A stretch of 64,000 nt of DNA from Deltaproteobacteria bacterium. Its GTDB lineage: Bacteria > Desulfobacterota > Binatia > Binatales > Binataceae. Positions 33,158-43,645 of the stretch are shown piece after piece. Every line of letters starts with the position of its first letter. Position 1 is the stretch's first letter. Made by a program: the position numbers and the translations under genes. The notes below the pieces were generated by a model. The model searched no databases. It was not told the origin of the DNA and was given only the letters and a program-made list of their open reading frames with translations. The stretch lies in NCBI GenBank assembly GCA_021799495.1, contig JAJZAI010000001.1:62001-126000 (forward strand), read 5' to 3'.

Positions 33158-34726
33158 TCAACGCGTCATGAATTCCGGACTGCCGAGGATCAGCGGCGCC
33201 CGCAGCGGCGGCGGCGCCTGTTCGACCGCGGCCGCCGTGTTCGGCGTGAACAGATCGCCGAGCGTCATCGCCAGCGCCGCCGGATCGGGCGGCGGCGGCC
33301 GATCGACGAATTCCGCCGGCCGCATCATCGGACGTTCCGCCGCGCCGTCCGGACTGCCGGCCGCATAATCCTGCGGCGGCCGGTTCAGCGGCAGCCGGCC
33401 CGCCCCGATCGCCGTCGCGAAGCTGAGCCGCATCATCATCCCGTCGGGATTGAGCCACGCTTCGCGCGTGTTGCTGTAGCCGTTCGGCGTCTGGCATCCG
33501 TACAGCGGCATCCCCATCATCGCCATCGAACCCGCCAGCGGCCGCGTGTTGATCACCTCGACTCCGGCCGCACGCGCGCACGAAATCACGTACTCATACG
33601 GCGATTTGAACTTCGTTCCGCGACAGCGCGGGTCGGAAAATTCCGCGCTCAGGAACATGGTTTCGAGCACGGCGCGAATTTCGCCGCCGCTTTGCAGATA
33701 CCGGCGCGCCATCCGCTCGACCAGCGCGTCAGGCGGCGCGTCGGCGACGAAATATTGCGCCAGTTGGAAGCTTAAATGCTTCGCGGTCGCAGGGCTTTCC
33801 GCGAGCATATCGAGCGCGCGTTCGCCCTCGGCCATTCCGCCGCCCGCGATTTTGCGCCCGAGGAAAAGCTTGTCGCTGTAATCATGCCGGCGCGGATAGA
33901 AGCGGAAGCCATACGCATCCGCGGCGCCGCCGGCCGCGTCCGCGCGCCGGCGCGCGAAGCGGCCAAACAGTCCGCCGCCGCCCATCCCGCCGAAACCGCC
34001 CATCCGCCGCGCGAATCCGGGACGCTCGATACTCCATCCGGTCAGGATATGCGCGAGCGCGATTACGTCGTCCTGATGGTAGCCGCCGTTGACGCCCAGC
34101 GTATGCAGCTCCATCACCTCGCGCGCGCAGTTCTCGTTGATGCCGTCGAATTTGCCGCGCGCGCCCGGCGAACCCGGCCCGGTGTTCTGCCAGTTGTCGA
34201 GATAAAAGAGCATCGCCGGATGCTTCGCGGTCGCGCCCAGCAGATCGCGAAAGCGGCCCATCGTGTGTGGCCGGATCGCCTCCTCCTCGAACGCGCCGAT
34301 CCAGATCGAGCAAAGCCCCTTGCCGGCGAAGACATTGAAGTGGTTGAACCAGAAGGCCGTCAGCACTTCCTGAAGCTGGCGCGGCCCGTGAATCGCGCGC
34401 ACGATCCGCGCATAGATGGCTTCCTGCACCACCTGCCGCGCCGCGCGGCGCGCGGCTTTCTTCGCCGCGACGTCGCCCTTCGCCGCTTCGCGAATCGGTT
34501 CCTGGAACTCCGCGAACAACTGCGGCGGCGTCATGCCGAGCGTTCTGATCCCGCGGATTTGCGCGGTCAGCTCCGGCGGAATCGGAATCGAGTCCGGCTC
34601 AAGTTGCCGTTCGAGATAGGCGCGCGCGCCCGCTTCGGCGACGGCGTCGGCATCGCCCGGACGCGGCCCAAAAGCCGCCCGATTGAGCGCGTGCAACGCC
34701 GCCGCCTTGTCGTTCGATGCGCTCAT
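33158..34726 (-). CDS. DUF1800 family protein
   Basis: A 522-residue protein of DUF1800. It begins DKAAALHALNRAAFGPRPGD, then LTAFWFNHFNVFAGKGLCS, NENCAREVMELHTLGVNGGY with HQDDVIALAHILTGWSIERP, and DALVERMARRYLQSGGEIRA, all standard. A Gly/Met/Phe-rich insert (RMGGFGGMGGGGLFGRFARR) at about residues 241-260 is unusual. No signal peptide is obvious, although family members are often envelope-associated. Start ATG at 34726 lies 36 bp after the repeat-protein gene, same strand. The four genes look like one operon. Confidence 0.93.
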   Translation of the reverse strand: MSASNDKAAALHALNRAAFGPRPGDADAVAEAGARAYLERQLEPDSIPIPPELTAQIRGIRTLGMTPPQLFAEFQEPIREAAKGDVAAKKAARRAARQVVQEAIYARIVRAIHGPRQLQEVLTAFWFNHFNVFAGKGLCSIWIGAFEEEAIRPHTMGRFRDLLGATAKHPAMLFYLDNWQNTGPGSPGARGKFDGINENCAREVMELHTLGVNGGYHQDDVIALAHILTGWSIERPGFARRMGGFGGMGGGGLFGRFARRRADAAGGAADAYGFRFYPRRHDYSDKLFLGRKIAGGGMAEGERALDMLAESPATAKHLSFQLAQYFVADAPPDALVERMARRYLQSGGEIRAVLETMFLSAEFSDPRCRGTKFKSPYEYVISCARAAGVEVINTRPLAGSMAMMGMPLYGCQTPNGYSNTREAWLNPDGMMMRLSFATAIGAGRLPLNRPPQDYAAGSPDGAAERPMMRPAEFVDRPPPPDPAALAMTLGDLFTPNTAAAVEQAPPPLRAPLILGSPEFMTR

Positions 34727-34762
34727 CTCTGACGCCCTGCGGTCTCCGCGCGCGCTCCCGGA

Positions 34763-35425
34763 CTAGTTCGCGTCCGCGCGATGATGCGCGCGGTCCCACC
34801 GGCTCTCGCTGCGATTGTAAAGATGTTCGCGATGCATGAAGCGATCGGGATGATCACGGAAGGCGTCGATCGCGCGCGGATGGTTCTGCGCCCATTCGCG
34901 CAGTTCCGGATGTTGCGCAAGGTATTGCTGATTGTCGATCAGATGCGGATTCGCGCTGAGCTGCTTCGCCACGTCGGGATGCCGGTCCAGATACCCGTCG
35001 AAGTCGCGCACGTACCCATGATGCTCGCCGTATTCGGTCGGCGGAGTCATTCCGCCCGGTCCTTCGCCGTGCCGTCCTTCCCATCCGGCTTCGCTGCGAT
35101 TGTAAAGATGTTCGCGATGCATGAAGCGGTCGGGATGGTCGCGGAAGGCGTCGGCCGCGCGCGGATGGTTCCGCATCCACTCGCGCAACTCCGGATGCTG
35201 CGCCAGGTATTGCGGATTATCGATCAGATGCGGATTGGCGCTGAGCTGCTTCGCCACATCGGGATGCCGATCCAGATACCGATCGAAGTCGCGCACGTAC
35301 CCATGATGCTCGCCGTATTCGGTCGGCGGAGCCATTCCGCCCGGTCCACCCTCCTGCGCTATCGCCGGCGCCGCCAAAGCGATTCCCATCGCTACCGCCG
35401 AAGCCAGCGTTACCAAACGTTTCAT
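34763..35425 (-). CDS. Exported protein with a 95-residue tandem duplication
   Basis: A 220-residue protein with a clear Sec signal (KRLVTLASAVAMGIALAAPA, cut after AIAQ) and then two near-identical 95-residue units. Each unit reads PPTEYGEHHGYVRDFD, YLDRHPDVAKQLSANPHLID, YLAQHPELREW and DHPDRFMHREHLYNRSE. His, Asp and Arg are very frequent, and the xHPxL-type phrases recur at about 11-13 residue steps, suggesting helical hairpins, perhaps metal- or polymer-binding. The ATG at 35425 follows AGGAGG. It heads the operon with DUF1800, the 93-residue protein and DUF1501. Function unknown. Confidence 0.85.
   Translation of the reverse strand: MKRLVTLASAVAMGIALAAPAIAQEGGPGGMAPPTEYGEHHGYVRDFDRYLDRHPDVAKQLSANPHLIDNPQYLAQHPELREWMRNHPRAADAFRDHPDRFMHREHLYNRSEAGWEGRHGEGPGGMTPPTEYGEHHGYVRDFDGYLDRHPDVAKQLSANPHLIDNQQYLAQHPELREWAQNHPRAIDAFRDHPDRFMHREHLYNRSESRWDRAHHRADAN
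34778..35347 (-). repeat. 285-bp tandem direct repeat inside the exported repeat protein
   Basis: Unit 1 spans about 35347-35063 and unit 2 about 35062-34778, exactly 285 bp (95 codons) each and in frame. Protein units differ at only about nine positions. Being this alike, they could recombine to change copy number, and short-read assemblies could collapse them. Confidence 0.85.
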
Positions 35426-35512
35426 GGTTGCAATTGCCTCCTGCGAATCTATACGCAGCAGGCCGGATGATTGTTTCAGCGGACGGGAGGGATGACGGGG
35501 ATGCGGCCGACG

Positions 35513-35962
35513 TCAGCGCGCCGCCCGGCCCCACGCCTCGATCAGGTTCTCGAAGGCGCGGCGCAACTCAGGATCCTTCAATTCCGGCAGCTCGATCGCA
35601 TGGCGGGTGGCGCGCGGCACGGTCCGCAGCCGCGGACGCTCGCGCCGGCTCAATCGGCCTTGCACGAAGCGGAGGTCGCGGACGGTATCGTTGCCCAGGG
35701 CGTCGTTAAGGCGCGCCAATATTTGCGGCTTCATCAGGTTGAGCTCCTGAATCCACATCGCGCCTGAGACCTTGACCGTCGCGACGTGAAACTTGAACCC
35801 CGCGATCTGCGTCCGCCGCGCGATCGTCTCGCCCACCGCCTCCGGCCAAATCCGCATCATCCGCACAATCTCGAAATGGCCCTCGGTATCGAGCCGGGCG
35901 AGAATCTCCTGCAGCGGACCGCCGATTTGCTGGGGATATTTGCGCCGCGCCGGAACCGCCAT
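35513..35962 (-). CDS. DciA-like protein (DUF721)
   Basis: A 149-residue protein whose N-terminal half (QQIGGPLQEILARLDTEGHF, WPEAVGETIARRTQIAGFKF, VKVSGAMWIQELNLMKPQIL) matches the DciA/DUF721 domain, a KH-like fold. DciA replaces DnaC/DnaI as the ancestral loader or recruiter of the replicative helicase DnaB in many bacteria. The C-terminal third is Arg-rich (GRLSRRERPRLRTVPRATRH) and probably disordered. Start ATG at 35962; no strong Shine-Dalgarno. It lies beside the only cluster of DnaA-box-like repeats in this window, 260 bp upstream, which may be meaningful. Confidence 0.85.
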   Translation of the reverse strand: MAVPARRKYPQQIGGPLQEILARLDTEGHFEIVRMMRIWPEAVGETIARRTQIAGFKFHVATVKVSGAMWIQELNLMKPQILARLNDALGNDTVRDLRFVQGRLSRRERPRLRTVPRATRHAIELPELKDPELRRAFENLIEAWGRAAR

Positions 35963-36223
35963 GCGTTAAACATAGCGCTTCGCGATCGGCGCCGCGACCG
36001 GATCTCGCAACACGCCCGCAATCGGCCCGCAACTTTATGCGCAGCCCGATCTCCCGCGCTACGGACCAATCGACCGGTCGCGGGCGGGCGCTGACAATCG
36101 CAGACCCGCACCCGGCTGACGACCGAAATATGCCAATAAAAGCTAAAGTCAGGCATTAAAGACACTAATGATCTATGATGTAGGAGCGAACCGGGGCTAA
36201 AGGCGGCGAAGATCTGTGCAAGA

Positions 36224-36267
36224 GTTATCAACAACCTGATATTGTGTTATCAACAAGTTATTCTACA
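36224..36267 (+). repeat. Array of 11-bp DnaA-box-like repeats
   Basis: GTTATCAACAA occurs perfectly at 36224-36234 and 36246-36256, and a diverged copy GTTATTCTACA follows directly at 36257-36267. Copy starts are 22 and 11 bp apart, so all lie on one helix face. The core TTATCAACA differs from the DnaA box TTATCCACA at one base. The array could be DnaA-binding or an operator for the downstream gene pair. Confidence 0.65.
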
Positions 36268-36287
36268 CCACAGGTTGCGTAATGAGC

Positions 36288-36314
36288 TTGACACATACGC
36301 CCACCGGGCATAAT
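36288..36314 (+). promoter_or_regulatory. Candidate sigma70 promoter for the ImmA/IrrE unit
   Basis: A perfect TTGACA -35 (36288-36293) is followed by CATAAT (36309-36314) at 15 bp or TAATTC (36311-36316) at 17 bp. It is the best promoter-like match in the window. The 11-bp array ends 20 bp upstream of the -35, where a regulator would be well placed. Confidence 0.5.
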
Positions 36315-36361
36315 TCCGTCATGTCGAAATCGTGGCTGCGGCGGGGAGCGGAGCCTCCGAA

Positions 36362-37057
36362 ATGGGAATTTCTAAAAAGTGCGCTGGAATTTCAGACCCA
36401 AGGGAGATTCGCCTTCTGGCCGAGAAATTGATTGAAGAAATCTTGCGCATCCGGGAAGACGGGGGGAACCGCAGAATCTCTCTTTTCGAATTGCTGCCGA
36501 TCGTTCCGAGAGATGCCGCTATCATCCGCGGAATCAAAATGGAGGAGGCCGAGGAACTGGACTCGCATCGGATCGTGGAGGGCGCCGCCGACACGAACAC
36601 CTCCAGGATTCGCATCGCCAGAACCATGCTAAGAAGGCGTCAGCGTTTCACCGAAGCTCACGAATTAGGGCATCTCCTGCTTGGGCATCCGCCAGGAATT
36701 CATCTTCGCGTTGCGGATGAATCCGGCACTCGGCCACCCGCAGAGATGGGGGCTGACAAGTTTGCGACCGAGTTTCTGATGCCCGAGCCTATAGTGACGA
36801 TGGTTTATGGGCATTACTTCGAGGAAGCATTGAATCACCGGGCGCTGACGGAGAATCAGGCGTATTTCCTGTGCGCCTCCTTGCCGCAGAAGTTCAGTCG
36901 AGCCGATTTCGCACGAATGAGTTTGAGAGAATTTTCAAAGATCGTCTCCGTCGTAACTAGCTTCGGCGGCGCTCCTTTCAGGCCGCTGGTTGACCTCTTC
37001 GACGTCTCCGCCGAATCGATGGCACGACGACTCGAAGAACTTCGATATCTCAGCTGA
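36362..37057 (+). CDS. ImmA/IrrE-family zinc metallopeptidase
   Basis: A 231-residue protein. The zinc motif EAHELGHLLLGH lies at residues 98-109 and the second part GADKFATEFLMPEP at about 146-159 matches the ImmA/IrrE E-x-x-A-D/N-x-F-A signature. ImmA cleaves phage repressors (ICEBs1) and IrrE/PprI cleaves the DdrO repressor; both answer DNA damage. No XRE-type helix-turn-helix repressor lies beside it, only a 67-residue gene 40 bp downstream. Base composition and codon use (tta, aaa, att) are lower in GC than the neighbours, a sign of transfer. ATG at 36362 follows GGAG; a GTG at 36332 is possible. Confidence 0.85.
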   Translation: MGISKKCAGISDPREIRLLAEKLIEEILRIREDGGNRRISLFELLPIVPRDAAIIRGIKMEEAEELDSHRIVEGAADTNTSRIRIARTMLRRRQRFTEAHELGHLLLGHPPGIHLRVADESGTRPPAEMGADKFATEFLMPEPIVTMVYGHYFEEALNHRALTENQAYFLCASLPQKFSRADFARMSLREFSKIVSVVTSFGGAPFRPLVDLFDVSAESMARRLEELRYLS

Positions 37058-37097
37058 CGAAACGCAAAGCAACGCTCCGAAATCAGGGGATATTACA

Positions 37098-37301
37098 ATG
37101 GCTAGAGGATTGGACGACCGCGAGAGAGACGAAAACGGTCGAATAAGAGAGAAAAATAGCAACACTTTGGTTGATACTCTACGCGAGACTTACGGTGATG
37201 GTTTCGGAGGTAAAATTCGGAGCGATGCGAAACTTCGCACTGTGTTGGACCGGGCAGGCGCGACCTCTCTTAGTGAATACCTGAGGCGGAAACGTCGGTG
37301 A
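37098..37301 (+). CDS. Small charged protein downstream of ImmA/IrrE
   Basis: A 67-residue very hydrophilic protein (ARGLDDRERDENGRIREKNS, then RETYGDGFGGKIRSDAKLRT and LRRKRR). The ATG at 37098 is preceded by AGGGGAT. I recall similar short proteins scattered in proteobacteria but cannot assign a family or function. The phrase DENGRIREKN and the regular C-terminal SLSEYLRRKRR tail suggest a small folded basic domain, perhaps nucleic-acid binding. Position, strand and composition match the metallopeptidase, so it is a likely partner: substrate, regulator or immunity-like factor. nrdJ begins 67 bp downstream. Confidence 0.65.
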   Translation: MARGLDDRERDENGRIREKNSNTLVDTLRETYGDGFGGKIRSDAKLRTVLDRAGATSLSEYLRRKRR

Positions 37302-37368
37302 AACCGCTAATTTGCAAACGACGAGCCCGAACGAATTCTCGGTTCACGCGCACGATAAGGAACGGGCT

Positions 37369-40176
37369 ATGGCCTCAGAGCTAGCAGCAGGAAACTCGGG
37401 AAAATCAGGGAAAATTACTCCCGACGCCGCCCGCAAACGCGCCGCCGGTATCGCGCTCGAGCGCTTCTTCACCCGCCCCGGCGTCGATCCGATGTCGCAG
37501 GTCGAATGGGAACTGCGCTCCGCCGTCATCTCGGGTGAAGACGGCCGCGTGGTCTTCGAACAGCGCGACGTCGAAGTGCCGCGCGCCTGGTCGCAGACCG
37601 CGACCAATGTCGTCGTTTCGAAGTATTTTCGCGGGCCGATCGGCAGCCCGCGGCGCGAAACCAGCGTCCGCCAGCTTATCGCCCGCGTCGTCGATACGAT
37701 TACGGCCTGGGGCGAACGCCAGAACTATTTCGCCGGCGACGCCGCCCGCGACGCCTTCAAGGCCGAACTCGCTTATCTGCTGATCAACCAGATGGCCTCG
37801 TTCAACAGCCCGGTCTGGTTCAACGTCGGCATCGAGCCCAAGCCGCAATGCTCCGCCTGCTTCATTTTGAAGGTCGAGGACAACATGGACTCGATCCTGG
37901 GCTGGTACCGCAATGAAGGAATGATCTTCAAAGGCGGCTCCGGTTCGGGCGTGAATCTTTCCGCGCTGCGTTCCTGCCGCGAGAAGCTCTCGGCCGGCGG
38001 CACCGCGTCGGGACCGCTCTCGTTCATGAAAGCCGCCGACGCCTCGGCCGGCGTAATCAAGTCGGGCGGCAAAACCCGCCGCGCGGCCAAGATGGTCGTG
38101 CTCAACGCCGATCATCCGGACATCAAGGATTTCATCACCTGCAAGGTCGATGAGGAAAAGAAGGCGTGGGCGCTGATCGACGCCGGCTACGACGGCTCGC
38201 TCGACGGTCCCGCCTACAGTTCGGTCTTCTTCCAGAACGCCAACAACTCCGTGCGCGCGACCGACGAATTCATGCGCGCGGTGGTTGACAACGGCGCCTG
38301 GCGCACCCATTACGTCACCGACGGCGCGATCGCCGACGAATATCGCGCGCGCGACCTGATGCGCATGATCGCCGAGGCGGCGTGGGCCTGTGGCGACCCG
38401 GGGATGCAATTCGACGACACGATCAATTCGTGGCACACCTGCCCCAACTCCGGCCGCATCAACGCCTCGAATCCGTGCAGCGAGTACATGCACCTCGACA
38501 ACTCCGCGTGCAACCTCGCTTCGCTCAACCTGCTCAGGTTCCTGGACGACGCCGGCAATTTCGACGTGCGCGCCTTCCGTCACGCCGTGGACGTGATGAT
38601 CACGGCGCAGGATATCGTGGTCGATAACTCCTCGTATCCGACCGACGAAATCGCCCGCAACGCGCACTCCTTCCGCGAGTTGGGATTGGGCTACGCCAAC
38701 CTGGGCGCAATGCTGATGGCGCTCGGGATGCCGTACGATTCCGATCAGGGCCGCGCCTATGCCGCCGCGATTACCGCCCTGATGACGGGCGAGGCCTATC
38801 TCCAGTCCGCGCGCATCGCGGAGGCGATGGCGCCGTTCGAGGGTTACGCGCAGAACCGCGAGCCGATGCTCCGCGTCATCGAACGCCATTGCAACTGCGC
38901 CCGCGAGCTCAAATCCGAATACGTGCCGCTCGATCTTCTGAGCGCCGCGCGCGAGTCATGGGACGACGCGCTGCGCCTCGGCCAGACCGCCGGCGTACGC
39001 AATTCGCAGGCGACCGTCATCGCCCCCACCGGCACGATCGCCTTCATGATGGATTGCGACACCACCGGCGTCGAACCCGATATCGCGCTGATCAAGTACA
39101 AGAAGCTGGTCGGCGGCGGGATGCTCAAAATCACCAACGGCTCCGTGCCGCGCGCGCTCAAGCGCCTCGGCTACGACTCGAAGGAAATCCAGGAAATCGT
39201 CGAATATCTCGACGAGCATGAGACCATCGAAGGCGCGCCCCATCTCGCCGACGCCCATCTCGCCGTTTTCGATTGCGCTTTCAAGCCGCGCGCCGGCTCG
39301 CGCACGATCCACTACCTCGGCCATCTCAAGATGATGGGCGCGGTGCAGCCGTTCATCTCCGGTGCCATCTCCAAGACCATCAATATGCCCGCCGACGTCA
39401 CCGTCGACGAAGTCGCCGAGGCCTATATCACCGCATGGCGGCTCGGGCTCAAGGCGGTCGCGATTTACCGCGACGGCTCCAAGCGCGTGCAGCCGCTCAG
39501 CACCGGCGGCGCGAAGGCGCAAGGCTCGTCCGCGCCCGCCGACGCGGTGCGCGCGGCGCAGGCGCTCGCCGCCGCGCCGTCCGATGAATTCCGGCCGCAT
39601 CGGCGCAAGCTCCCCGACGAGCGCAAATCGATCACGCACAAGTTCGATATCGCCGGCCACGAAGGCTACATCACGGTCGGGATGTACGAGGACGGCGCGC
39701 CCGGCGAAATTTTCGTCTCGATGTCCAAACAAGGCTCGACCATCTCGGGCCTGATGGATTCGTTCGCGACCGCGATTTCCTACGCTCTGCAATACGGCGT
39801 GCCGCTGCAATTCCTGGTGGACAAGTTCGCCCACATGCGCTTCGAGCCGTCGGGCTTCACCAAGAATCCGCAGATTCCATACGCCAAGTCGATCGTCGAT
39901 TACCTTTTCCGCTGGATGGCGTCGAAGTTCCTCGACGAGCAGGCGCGGCAGGAAGTCGGCGTGATCGGCCAGACGCCGGCGATCGAACCCGCGCTCAAGC
40001 CGATCGCGGCGGCGCCCGCGGCGGGCGCGCGAATCGAAGGCAAGGACTCCGGGATGCGGCAGGCGTTCATCAATCAGGCCGACGCCCCCCCCTGTCCCGA
40101 TTGCGGCTCGATCATGGTGCGCAACGGCGCCTGCTACAAATGCATGAATTGCGGCGCCACCAGCGGATGTTCCTGA
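37369..40176 (+). CDS. nrdJ: Adenosylcobalamin-dependent (class II) ribonucleotide reductase
   Basis: A 935-residue enzyme that makes deoxyribonucleotides from ribonucleotides with AdoCbl radical chemistry. Landmarks: QMASFNSPVWFNVGIEPKPQ, the GGSGSGVNLSALRS loop, INASNPCSEYMHLDNSACNL with the active-site Cys at about residue 370, and ATVIAPTGTIAFMMDCDTTG. The C-terminus has a redox and zinc-ribbon tail, CPDCGSIMVRNGACYKCMNC from residue 909. Start is ATG at 37369, 9 nt after AAGGA. A run of eight C at 40085-40092 immediately precedes the tail. No cobalamin riboswitch or NrdR box is evident in the 67 bp upstream. Oxygen-independent dNTP supply is expected. Confidence 0.97.
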   Translation: MASELAAGNSGKSGKITPDAARKRAAGIALERFFTRPGVDPMSQVEWELRSAVISGEDGRVVFEQRDVEVPRAWSQTATNVVVSKYFRGPIGSPRRETSVRQLIARVVDTITAWGERQNYFAGDAARDAFKAELAYLLINQMASFNSPVWFNVGIEPKPQCSACFILKVEDNMDSILGWYRNEGMIFKGGSGSGVNLSALRSCREKLSAGGTASGPLSFMKAADASAGVIKSGGKTRRAAKMVVLNADHPDIKDFITCKVDEEKKAWALIDAGYDGSLDGPAYSSVFFQNANNSVRATDEFMRAVVDNGAWRTHYVTDGAIADEYRARDLMRMIAEAAWACGDPGMQFDDTINSWHTCPNSGRINASNPCSEYMHLDNSACNLASLNLLRFLDDAGNFDVRAFRHAVDVMITAQDIVVDNSSYPTDEIARNAHSFRELGLGYANLGAMLMALGMPYDSDQGRAYAAAITALMTGEAYLQSARIAEAMAPFEGYAQNREPMLRVIERHCNCARELKSEYVPLDLLSAARESWDDALRLGQTAGVRNSQATVIAPTGTIAFMMDCDTTGVEPDIALIKYKKLVGGGMLKITNGSVPRALKRLGYDSKEIQEIVEYLDEHETIEGAPHLADAHLAVFDCAFKPRAGSRTIHYLGHLKMMGAVQPFISGAISKTINMPADVTVDEVAEAYITAWRLGLKAVAIYRDGSKRVQPLSTGGAKAQGSSAPADAVRAAQALAAAPSDEFRPHRRKLPDERKSITHKFDIAGHEGYITVGMYEDGAPGEIFVSMSKQGSTISGLMDSFATAISYALQYGVPLQFLVDKFAHMRFEPSGFTKNPQIPYAKSIVDYLFRWMASKFLDEQARQEVGVIGQTPAIEPALKPIAAAPAAGARIEGKDSGMRQAFINQADAPPCPDCGSIMVRNGACYKCMNCGATSGCS

Positions 40177-40205
40177 CCTTCCGGAGCGAAGGAGGAGAAA
40201 GGGGG

Positions 40206-40550
40206 ATGGAAACCGCGAAATCGGACCTCGGGCTGAGCCGGACGCGCGCGATTCTCGAACGCTCTCGCGATTTCGCCGTGCTGCGCGGCCGCGGCCATCA
40301 TCCGGTCTGCGGCGCGACGCTCACCTGCGCCAGCGATTTGCCGTGGCAGATGCAGATCCGCTGCGCCCGCTGCCAGGAAATTTTCTGCTTCGATAATCTG
40401 GCGTGGCGGACCGGCGGCGCCGACCGCTGGCGGCTGAATCGCGAATCGCGCGCCGCGGCTGAATCGGGATGCGCCGGGATGGCGGTGGACTTGCCGCTTG
40501 CTCACGCGCGAGTCGCCGCGTTCGCGCAGGCGGCGCGCGGCCAGCGTTAA
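40206..40550 (+). CDS. Hypothetical protein with Cys pairs, downstream of nrdJ
   Basis: A 114-residue protein of unknown family. The middle has a possible zinc-ribbon-like pattern: VCGATLTC, then IRCARCQEIFCFDNLAW. The N-terminus (ETAKSDLGLSRTRAILERSR) looks helical; the tail is Ala/Arg rich. ATG at 40206 is preceded by GGAGGAGAAAGGGGG, a strong ribosome-binding site, 29 bp after nrdJ, so it is probably co-transcribed. A link to nucleotide metabolism or DNA binding is possible but not shown. Confidence 0.6.
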   Translation: METAKSDLGLSRTRAILERSRDFAVLRGRGHHPVCGATLTCASDLPWQMQIRCARCQEIFCFDNLAWRTGGADRWRLNRESRAAAESGCAGMAVDLPLAHARVAAFAQAARGQR

Positions 40551-40759
40551 CAATAAGTTTGGGGATGGGGACGGTGGATGCGGGGGAGATGGCCCCGGAG
40601 AGGCGTGGACGAAAAGGCGGGGGAGGATTTTGCGGGCGGATGCGGCGGATTGCGGCGGCGGATGAAACGTTTCTCCGGGGCCTCATTTGATCTGACTTGA
40701 GAACGGGCGCGGCTCGTTCTCGTCGAGTGTGCGGCGGGGCGGCGGATGCGGGGATGGCA

Positions 40760-40786
40760 GGGGGTCGGGAGTCTCTCCCGACCCCC
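40760..40786. terminator. Terminator hairpin downstream of nrdJ operon and alaS
   Basis: A perfect 12-bp stem: GGGGGTCGGGAG (40760-40771) with CTCCCGACCCCC (40775-40786), loop TCT. It lies between the converging nrdJ unit and alaS. Apart from this hairpin and the REP element at 40888, the 416-bp stretch 40551-40966 shows no gene. Confidence 0.7.
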
Positions 40787-40887
40787 AATTGTTCCCGGAA
40801 TTAGTATTGCGACTGACTATTCGTTTGCGGCGACACCGTAATTCTTGTGCCCGACCTGAGAATCCCCGCCCAACGGCCCTCTACGCC

Positions 40888-40921
40888 GTCATTCTCGGGC
40901 TTGACCCGAGAATCCATGCGC
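40888..40921 (+). repeat. REP-like hairpin element, copy C
   Basis: ATTCTCGGG (40891-40899) and CCCGAGAAT (40905-40913) enclose CTTGA, followed by CCATGCGC. Core and flanks match copies A and B near 29.6 kb. It lies 46 bp past the alaS stop. Confidence 0.8.
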
Positions 40922-40966
40922 ACTCAAGCTTGCGGACGACCCACAAACCACGACTGACCCGGAAAA

Positions 40967-43645
40967 TCACACCAGCGAGGCGATTTGCTCCAGCGCCTCG
41001 TCAAGCCGCGACGCGTCGTGGCCGCCCGCCTGCGCGAAATCCGGCCGCCCGCCGCCGCTGCCGCCGACGATCGGCGCAATCCGCTTGATGATCTCGCCCG
41101 CCTTGATCCTGCCGGTCAGGTCCGGCGTCACCGCGACGATCAGCGCCGCCTTGCCCTCGCCCAAATCCGTGCCGATTCCGACCACCGCCGAGCCGTGCTT
41201 CTGGCGCATCCGGTCGGCCAGCTCGCGGAGAGCCTTGGCCTCGACGCCCTCGACCTTGCGCGTCACGATCTTCACGCCGTTGGCTTCGCGCACGCGCTCG
41301 GCGTCTCCGCCCGCTCCCGCGCCGGCGACCAGTTTCTGTTCGAGCGCGCGGAGCTTCTTCTCCAGCTCCTTCTCGCGCGCGACCAGTTTCTCCAGCCGAT
41401 CGAGCGCGGCGGCGTCGCGCGCGCCGAGACTCCGCCCGAGATCATCCAGAATCTTTTCGCGCCGCCGAATCGATTCCAGCGCGCCCTGTCCGGTGAACGC
41501 CTCGATCCGGCGCACGCCGGCCGCGACTCCGCCCTCGCTTTCCAGCTTGAAGAACCCGATGTCCCCCGTCCGCGCGACGTGCGTGCCGCCGCACAGCTCG
41601 GTCGAAAAATCGCCCATTCGCACGACCCGCACGATATCCCCGTACTTGTCGCCGAAAAACGCGAGCGCGCCCGTCTTGAGCGCCGCGTCGTAGGCCATCT
41701 CTTCGGTCGTTACGGCGGCGTTCTCGCGGATGCGCGCGTTGATCTCTTCCTCGATCGTCGCGAGGTCGCCCTCGCCCAACGGGCCGTTGTGGCTGAAGTC
41801 GAAACGCAATCGCTCCGGCGCGACCATCGAACCCGCCTGATGGACTTCCGCGCCGGCGATATCGCGCAGCGCGTAGTGCAGGATATGCGTCGCGGAATGG
41901 TTGAGCATCGCCGCGTCGCGCCGCGCGCGATCGATCTTCAGCTTTACGCGCCGGCCGCGCGCGAAATCGCCCGGCGCGCCTTGCAGTATCCGGCCGACGT
42001 GCAGAATCGCGCCGTCGTGCTTGCGTGTATCGTCGATTTCAACCAGCGCGCCCGACTCGGTTTCGATCACGCCGCGATCGCCGACTTGGCCGCCGCTCTC
42101 GGCGTAAAAGGGCGTCTCGGCCGCGACGATCGCGATTCGGCCTTCGCCCGCTTCATTCGCCGCGAGAATTTCCGATTCGGCCTCGTAACGACGCTCGCCG
42201 ACGAAGCGCGACTTGACGCCGCCGCTGATAATCAGTTCCGGCGCGATTTCTTCCTTGCGCGCCGCGCGGCCGCGTTCGCGCTGCTCCTCCATCAGCCGGT
42301 TGAATTCCTCGACCTCGACGGTGAAACCGTCCTCGCGCAGGATGTCCTGCGTCAGGTCGAGCGGAAAGCCGTAGGTGTCGTGCAACTGGAACGCGACATC
42401 GCCGGGAAAGACGGCGCTTTTGATCGTGCGCCGCCGCTCGCGCCATTCCTCAAGCAACTGCAAGCCGCGCTCCAGCGTCTGCTCGAATCGGCGCGCCTCG
42501 TCGCCGCATACTCTGATGATCTTTTGTTTATTGTCGCGCAGCTCCGGGTATGCGCCGCCCATCGCCTCGACGACGTATTGGACAACGCTGAAAAGAAAGA
42601 CTGCCAGCGAACCGCCAGAAGCCGGCACGCCAAGTTTATGCGCATGCCGGATCGCGCGGCGCATCAACCGCCGCAATACATATTCGCGATCGCTATTGCC
42701 GGGCTGAACGCCGTCACAAATGAGAAAACTGATTGCGCGCGCATGGTCGGCTATCGCGCGAAATGAGATATCGGATTCGGTATTCGAGCCGTAGCGAAAA
42801 TTCGCCTTATTATTTGCCAGGGTTTTAACCTGTATTTCGATTCCCGCGATAATCGTCTGAAACAGATCGATATCGTAGTTGCCGAGCAGCTTGCCGGTCT
42901 CGAGGCTCTGCATCACCGCCGCGACCCGCTCCAGCCCCGTCCCGGTATCGACATGTTTCATCGGCAGCGGCGTCAGCTTGCCAGTCGCGTCGCGGTTGTA
43001 CTGGATAAAGACGAGATTACCCAGTTCGATAAAGCGCGCGCATCCGTCGACGTTCACGCCGCACTCGCCCGCCGGATGCGGACACTGCGCCGACGCCTCC
43101 GCGCCGCGATCGATATGGATTTCCGAGCAGGGACCGCACGGCCCCGTCTCGCCCATCTCCCAGAAATTGTCCTTCTCGCCGAAGCGCAGAATCCGCCCGG
43201 GCAGCAGGTCCGGGATCGTCTTCCACGCCGCCTCGGCTTCGTCGTCGTCCTTGTAGATCGTCGCGTACAGCAGGCCGGCCGGAATCTCCCAGACCTTAGT
43301 CACCAGCTCCCAGTGCCACGCGATCGCCTCGCGCTTGTAGTAGTCGCCGAACGACCAGTTCCCGAGCATCTCGAAGAACGTATGGTGATAGCTGTCGCGG
43401 CCGACCGCTTCGAGGTCGTTATGCTTGCCGGAGATGCGCAGGCATTTCTGGCAATCAGCGACGCGCGGCGCCGGCGGCGTGCGCACGCCCAGGAAATAAT
43501 CCTTGAACGGAACCATCCCGGCGTTGACGAACAACAGCGTCGGGTCGCCCTTGGGAATCAGCGGCGCCGACGGAACAATTTCGTGTTTCTTCTCCTTGAA
43601 GAAATCAAGAAATGACTGGCGAATTTTATCGGTGGTCCAACGCAT
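40967..43645 (-). CDS. alaS: Alanine-tRNA ligase
   Basis: An 892-residue class II aminoacyl-tRNA synthetase charging tRNA-Ala. The N-terminus WTTDKIRQSFLDFFKEKKHE and FVNAGMVPFKDYFLG are standard. The editing domain has LNHSATHILHYALRDIAG and CGGTHVARTGDIGFF with zinc ligands, and the C-terminal C-Ala domain ends GGSGGGRPDFAQAGGHD. Length fits. A patch at about 42700-42860 (NNKANFRYGSNTESDISFRA) has clearly lower GC than the rest of the gene, though the protein sequence is family-typical. No leader peptide or T-box seen. Confidence 0.98.
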   Translation of the reverse strand: MRWTTDKIRQSFLDFFKEKKHEIVPSAPLIPKGDPTLLFVNAGMVPFKDYFLGVRTPPAPRVADCQKCLRISGKHNDLEAVGRDSYHHTFFEMLGNWSFGDYYKREAIAWHWELVTKVWEIPAGLLYATIYKDDDEAEAAWKTIPDLLPGRILRFGEKDNFWEMGETGPCGPCSEIHIDRGAEASAQCPHPAGECGVNVDGCARFIELGNLVFIQYNRDATGKLTPLPMKHVDTGTGLERVAAVMQSLETGKLLGNYDIDLFQTIIAGIEIQVKTLANNKANFRYGSNTESDISFRAIADHARAISFLICDGVQPGNSDREYVLRRLMRRAIRHAHKLGVPASGGSLAVFLFSVVQYVVEAMGGAYPELRDNKQKIIRVCGDEARRFEQTLERGLQLLEEWRERRRTIKSAVFPGDVAFQLHDTYGFPLDLTQDILREDGFTVEVEEFNRLMEEQRERGRAARKEEIAPELIISGGVKSRFVGERRYEAESEILAANEAGEGRIAIVAAETPFYAESGGQVGDRGVIETESGALVEIDDTRKHDGAILHVGRILQGAPGDFARGRRVKLKIDRARRDAAMLNHSATHILHYALRDIAGAEVHQAGSMVAPERLRFDFSHNGPLGEGDLATIEEEINARIRENAAVTTEEMAYDAALKTGALAFFGDKYGDIVRVVRMGDFSTELCGGTHVARTGDIGFFKLESEGGVAAGVRRIEAFTGQGALESIRRREKILDDLGRSLGARDAAALDRLEKLVAREKELEKKLRALEQKLVAGAGAGGDAERVREANGVKIVTRKVEGVEAKALRELADRMRQKHGSAVVGIGTDLGEGKAALIVAVTPDLTGRIKAGEIIKRIAPIVGGSGGGRPDFAQAGGHDASRLDEALEQIASLV

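Follow-up and report, generated by a model that had tools for sequence, protein, structure and literature searches.

The known role of proteases of the M78 (ImmA/IrrE-like) family is to switch DNA-damage and phage responses by acting on XRE repressors, and ssDNA activates two of them, PprI and CapP (PMC10904395). The 64-kb stretch of DNA analyzed here, which we refer to as the window, harbors a gene for an M78 protease followed on the same (+) strand, after 40 nt, by a gene for a 67-residue protein; these two genes together constitute the cassette. The order on the + strand is M78, small gene, nrdJ, and the M78 gene is thus upstream of nrdJ in the window. The features of the locus are as follows.

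35513..35962, − strand: dciA, the divergent neighbor (Pfam DciA, 66.6 bits)
36354..37401, + strand: inserted stretch (homology to close relatives ends at ~36353 and restarts at ~37402)
36362..37057, + strand: M78 (ImmA/IrrE-like) metallopeptidase, 231 aa, active site intact, without a zinc-ribbon tail
37098..37301, + strand: small charged protein, 67 aa, with 17 K/R and 12 D/E, a member of a conserved family without a name
37369..40176, + strand: nrdJ, class II (B12-dependent) ribonucleotide reductase (RNR; NCBIfam PRK06556, 1454 bits)

Gene calls, including the nrdJ frame, derive from a heuristic script rather than a gene finder; the nrdJ start was set at ATG 37369 and not at TTG 37312 on comparison of the N terminus with those of relatives. 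The original prediction of an ImmA/IrrE metallopeptidase with a 67-residue partner is borne out, with both open reading frames intact as described and a complete active site. Elsewhere in the window, a 220-aa open reading frame (34763-35425, − strand) has a signal peptide–like start and two near-identical repeats (PPTEYGEHHGYVRDFD...RHPDVAKQLSANPHLIDN), and matches no Pfam family at its cut-off.

The window protease scores 38 bits against Pfam Peptidase_M78 (cut-off 22) and retains the HELGH motif and the third metal ligand, with H100, E101, H104, and E128 invariant in the alignment. An AF2 model (pLDDT 78.6) finds its best PDB fold matches in IrrE, CapP, and PprI, and the fold search returns IrrE (3dti, E = 4e-4) and CapP (7t5t, E = 1e-3) at a probability of 1.00, with TM-scores of only 0.3 to 0.4. 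CapP is also the best PADLOC match, and the spr1629 antitoxin model reaches just 27 bits, far under its cut-off of 335. The tail harbors no cysteine, and there is no C-terminal CxxC...CxxC ribbon. By sequence, this is an ordinary member of the M78 family in an unusual context. The same genome encodes a second short M78 protein (L024 1477-2205, − strand; also found as L127, G000:C1) that is ~30% identical; its gene is directly before pyrD and divergent from thyX, two nucleotide-synthesis genes named by eye, and is without a small partner.

The cassette was expected to form an island of lower GC content, and it does: its GC content is 53.5% versus 64.5% for the window, with only 0.5% of equal-size window stretches equally low, and the GC3 of its two genes is 0.61 and 0.47 versus 0.85 for nrdJ. 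In same-family relatives, dciA (found in 31 of the 33 relatives searched) and nrdJ diverge across a conserved intergenic region, and the gap between them is without the cassette, one other genus (G015, below) excepted; only two of the Binataceae genomes compared carry it. The point at which homology to close relatives restarts (~37402) is already within the part of nrdJ that encodes its N terminus. The nrdJ ATG of the nearest relative is 148 nt past the −35 element of a promoter that is 93 to 95% identical, whereas in the window the nrdJ ATG is 1081 nt and the M78 ATG 74 nt from that element, distances that indicate that most of the nrdJ leader gave way to the cassette, which sits just behind the nrdJ promoter. 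Comparison with relatives thus shows a two-gene cassette of foreign composition inserted in the 5′ leader of nrdJ, downstream of its promoter. This position within the leader probably entails cotranscription with nrdJ, and a single M78–small gene–nrdJ transcript is probably the natural reading of the locus. Terminator-like sites in the cassette region are not above the chance level, and an Rfam search of 34000-41000 gave no match to an RNA element. We are highly confident of this anatomy and of the linkage.

The region ahead of the cassette contains GTTATCAACAA twice, 22 bp apart, and the following elements.

36225..36233, + strand: DnaA box–like site TTATCAACA, copy 1, inside the first GTTATCAACAA, its position conserved in relatives
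36247..36255, + strand: DnaA box–like site TTATCAACA, copy 2, 22 bp from copy 1
36234..36249, + strand: NrdR box–like 16-mer, box 1, weak in the window
36265..36280, + strand: NrdR box–like 16-mer, box 2, 31 bp downstream of box 1
36288-36293 (TTGACA) and 36309-36314 (CATAAT), + strand: ancestral nrdJ promoter elements, read by eye, with 15 nt between them and conserved in cassette-less relatives

The consensus DnaA box is TTATCCACA, which is present at the DnaA box–like positions in three genomes; the relatives otherwise carry TTATCAACA or variants. The NrdR box–like pair, with boxes 31 to 32 bp apart, is interleaved with these sites and is conserved across the family. Scored against the NrdR consensus of general knowledge, the pair reaches 20/32 in the window and up to 27/32 in relatives, where shuffles of the window region give a mean of 16.7 and a maximum of 21; the case for NrdR boxes therefore rests on conservation, since the window pair by itself falls within the shuffle range. 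The genome encodes NrdR (TIGR00244, 196 bits versus a cut-off of 124.65), and a sigma-70 scan returned no site at its threshold in the promoter region. Each NrdR box of E. coli spans 16 bp, the linkers are 15 bp, and an RNR promoter there is also bound or acted on by DnaA (PMC12176259).

These elements had been taken for a strong promoter belonging to the cassette itself, with phased, operator-like 11-bp repeats. The paired GTTATCAACAA repeat is indeed there, but the same block of promoter and repeats precedes nrdJ in relatives without the gene pair, which identifies it as the ancestral nrdJ control region. The relatives without the cassette thereby contradict a self-contained module with its own promoter and 11-bp operator. 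For a damage-response or toxin–antitoxin-like unit of this kind, with the small protein bound to the 11-bp array and cleaved by the protease, speak the family of the protease, which is the right one, and the conservation, high charge, and partly helical prediction of its partner; given that the array and promoter belong to nrdJ, and that searches of DNA-binding families and PDB folds gave no match to the small protein, we consider it highly improbable.

The small protein has no named family in Pfam, NCBIfam, or PADLOC (its PHROG match is weak, E = 0.034), no known toxin or antitoxin family above cut-off in the first three of these collections, and no significant PDB relative by sequence or fold; its AF2 model (pLDDT 73) has three short helices. 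The description of a protein of no known family stands to this extent, but the protein is not alone, with relatives in several phyla. These relatives are found in 98 of 399 genomes in the family of Bradyrhizobium manausense (G442), in 9 of 348 in the family of Acidocella (G438), in 7 of 347 in the phylum of an Acidobacteriia MAG (G441), and in 3 of 57 near relatives, the window genome counted. They also occur on two plasmid records and a few viral contigs. We rejected the possibility that the small gene is a phage or plasmid gene, as an annotated phage collection gave no match and only two plasmid records carry it.

A search for the gene pair in other genomes places an M78 gene within ~3.2 kb of the small gene, and often within 500 bp, in 23 of the 60 loci compared, where the chance expectation is well below 1 per cent (one to six M78 genes per genome of several Mb). 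The M78-linked loci are clustered on the small-protein tree (10 changes versus 18.7 in shuffles, with 0 of 500 as low), a tree of only 69 columns and weak resolution. In the G442-family genome G653 (L124 6878-7702, − strand), a single open frame runs without interruption through the small gene and an M78 gene, and nrdJ and a first, ribbon-tailed M78 gene are upstream of it; a ribosome-binding-like site before the internal ATG is compatible with either a coupled start or a fusion. Both this frame and the proximity of the two genes in several phyla support the original prediction that protease and small protein belong together. The pairing is not universal, however: two large small-protein subgroups in the G442 family (L109, L111-L122; L098-L108) have no M78 gene nearby, which indicates that the small-protein family has other roles too. 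Some of the loci in these M78-less subgroups are apparently in conserved chromosomal settings, with L098 and L099 near clpS-like genes. These data provide a widespread, unnamed small-protein family with a genomic context that is open to testing.

The absence of an XRE repressor, a further element of the original prediction, applies to the window, in which a small 5-seed HTH profile found no XRE gene over the full 64 kb, but not to the family at large. The M78 gene near a small gene is commonly part of a divergent XRE–M78 pair, and an XRE gene or domain is close by in most other small-gene/M78 loci, which makes the XRE-less form of the window a variant. Other neighbors of the small gene include annotated TIR genes and, as named by eye, genes for a ubiquitin-like E1, for AAA and subtilase proteins, and for methylases. 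A pair encoding an AAA ATPase and a subtilase-like protease, defense-like in character, is found near the small gene in a viral contig and in an Acetobacteraceae MAG (L138 1505-4874 and L009 1-2134).

Such neighborhoods lead to the main rival explanation, that the cassette is the relic of a defense-island control module of the CapH/CapP-like XRE–M78 type, which in other genomes adjoins the small gene and variable effectors, but here is without its XRE and effector genes and lives off the nrdJ promoter, with its closeness to RNR accidental in this genome. The foreign composition of the cassette and the PADLOC match to CapP fit a relic, as does the usual location of the small gene near XRE–M78 pairs with TIR, ubiquitin-like E1, AAA plus subtilase, or methylase genes close by. 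Against it are the place of the window protease on the M78 tree, where it joins the side that is XRE-less and includes nrdJ-linked members, the presence of the same two genes at the same site in a second genus, and the repetition of the trio in two G442-family genomes, all described below. On balance, we judge the relic explanation unlikely, while the strongest of the rivals.

Several genomes place M78 genes beside nrdJ. In G015, which belongs to another Binataceae genus, dciA is followed by an nrdJ-like N-terminal fragment, an M78 gene, and the small gene, at the same site as in the window; the contig stops 63 nt into an apparent nrdJ, and the small gene, which has no standard start codon, may be decaying. 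Identity to the window is 34% for the M78 protein and ~50% for the small protein, values low enough that the cassettes may stem either from two separate events or from a single old one followed by many losses. In G805 and G653 of the G442 family, nrdJ precedes an M78 gene and the small gene. G805 also has an XRE-like gene (L123 7597-7980, − strand) after nrdJ, a ribbon-tailed M78 gene, and the small gene, and thus holds the full set of parts in one place.

A query with the G653 M78 protein minus its ribbon matched 25 of 310 G442-family genomes. Among 22 Nitrobacteraceae-family loci examined with wide flanks (20 fetched, plus G805 and G653), the M78 gene is directly after nrdJ on the same strand in 18, a count from a query-selected set and not from all nrdJ genes, in which many members are only ~30% identical to the query; of the remaining four, one begins at the end of a contig and three are without an nrdJ in the vicinity. 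Ten nrdJ–M78 genomes together hold 28 M78 matches, and most nrdJ-linked M78 genes have no adjoining small gene. M78 relatives on plasmids are few, and the one that we inspected has an HTH gene rather than nrdJ as its neighbor. On the M78 tree, the nrdJ label requires 6 changes versus 14.8 in shuffles, and the M78 proteins of the window and of G015, along with the second M78 protein of the window genome, fall on the side that is XRE-less and includes the nrdJ-linked proteins (a short branch, SH-aLRT 91). The window protease is thus shown, on a weakly resolved tree, to group with short XRE-less M78 proteins that recur beside nrdJ. A limited search of the open-access literature found no report of a link between nrdJ and M78/IrrE, and the recurrence suggests an unrecognized tie of this protease family to DNA-precursor synthesis.

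A second connection to RNR comes from the C-terminal ribbons of some of these proteases. In S. nassauensis NrdJ, four cysteines were modeled as zinc ligands and C933 and C945 as a terminal redox pair (Loderer et al. 2017, PMC5704485), and all six cysteines are required for turnover with TCEP (PMC5704485). Twelve nrdJ-linked M78 proteins match a profile of the NrdJ tail above the inclusion threshold, with E-values from 7e-17 to 0.008, of which the weaker matches could be generic zinc ribbons. These tails mostly keep the four zinc cysteines and have lost one or both cysteines of the redox pair. From these residue patterns, we infer that the ribbon of nrdJ-linked M78 proteins may be a docking or decoy element, for which the loss is a better fit than for electron transfer.

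Tails that resemble the end of NrdJ also bear on the next rival explanation, an insertion hot spot, in which the ends of nrdJ tolerate or attract M78 cassettes that pick up pieces of nrdJ without regulatory meaning. In favor of a hot spot, the 5′ end has insertions in the window and in G015, where an N-terminal piece resembling nrdJ is also present, and insertions at the 3′ end come with the NrdJ-like tail. Yet the linked genes are repeatedly M78 genes, drawn from divergent subgroups, they follow closely behind nrdJ on the same strand, and the tail retains its four zinc cysteines despite many silent and coding changes. A hot spot without regulatory meaning is thus improbable in our assessment.

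We favor an RNR-coupled regulated-proteolysis module, with the small protein perhaps a substrate or an adaptor, and place it, from genomic evidence, close to an even chance. In its favor are the insertion between promoter and reading frame, the DnaA-like and NrdR-like sites together with the NrdR gene, the second Binataceae genus with the same site, the recurrent nrdJ–M78 order, the NrdJ-like ribbons, and the proximity of small gene and M78 gene, with their shared frame in G653. Counting against it are the ribbon-less tail of the window protease, the many nrdJ-linked M78 genes with no adjoining small gene, the two M78-less subgroups, the query-selected origin of the nrdJ–M78 count, a window NrdR box pair within the shuffle range, and a cassette found in just two of the Binataceae genomes compared. 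The cassette and the class II RNR would be made together under NrdR/DnaA-type control, at times of dNTP shortage or disturbed replication. By analogy with PprI and CapP, ssDNA or nucleotide state might trigger the peptidase, which would cleave the small protein or be restrained by it, and the outcome would be an adjustment of NrdJ or of a replication-stress output. A functional tie of the cassette to RNR we regard as tentative, somewhat short of an even chance, and that the small protein is the cleaved substrate is doubtful. Broader still, and also rather unlikely as a whole, is the proposal that M78 proteases might form a dedicated, unrecognized control layer of class II RNR. In this view, their genes would lie within or beside the nrdJ unit in two phyla or more, some of the proteases would dock on the enzyme, or on its partners, by means of a redox-dead mimic of the NrdJ C-terminal zinc domain, and the small protein, as their adaptor or substrate, would link the supply of dNTPs to a proteolytic switch for damage or phage defense. 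The linkage to class II RNR and the RNR-like ribbon in some of the proteases point to a second kind of target for this family, and yield a testable claim on how bacteria tie dNTP synthesis to stress or defense.

Relative to described systems, the window locus is closest in its protease to IrrE/PprI–DdrO of Deinococcus and to CapP–CapH, which controls CBASS: all have an M78 protein with an intact HExxH motif, and IrrE, CapP, and PprI are the best PDB fold matches. In contrast to these systems, the window has no adjoining XRE repressor, the neighbor is a small protein of another family, and the gene is in the nrdJ leader. The ImmA–ImmR and XRE–M78 regulators of mobile elements and defense loci employ the same protease family, and relatives of the small gene are often beside such pairs, whereas the window pair is without XRE and on the other side of the M78 tree. 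With NrdR-regulated RNR operons, the window family shares a box-like pair 31 to 32 bp apart and an NrdR gene, but the window boxes are weak (20/32), and the predicted transcript would add a protease and a small protein. Finally, the C-terminal zinc domain of class II RNR (PMC5704485) resembles the ribbon tails of several nrdJ-linked M78 proteins, but most of these tails are short of one or both redox-pair cysteines, and the window protease has no such tail.
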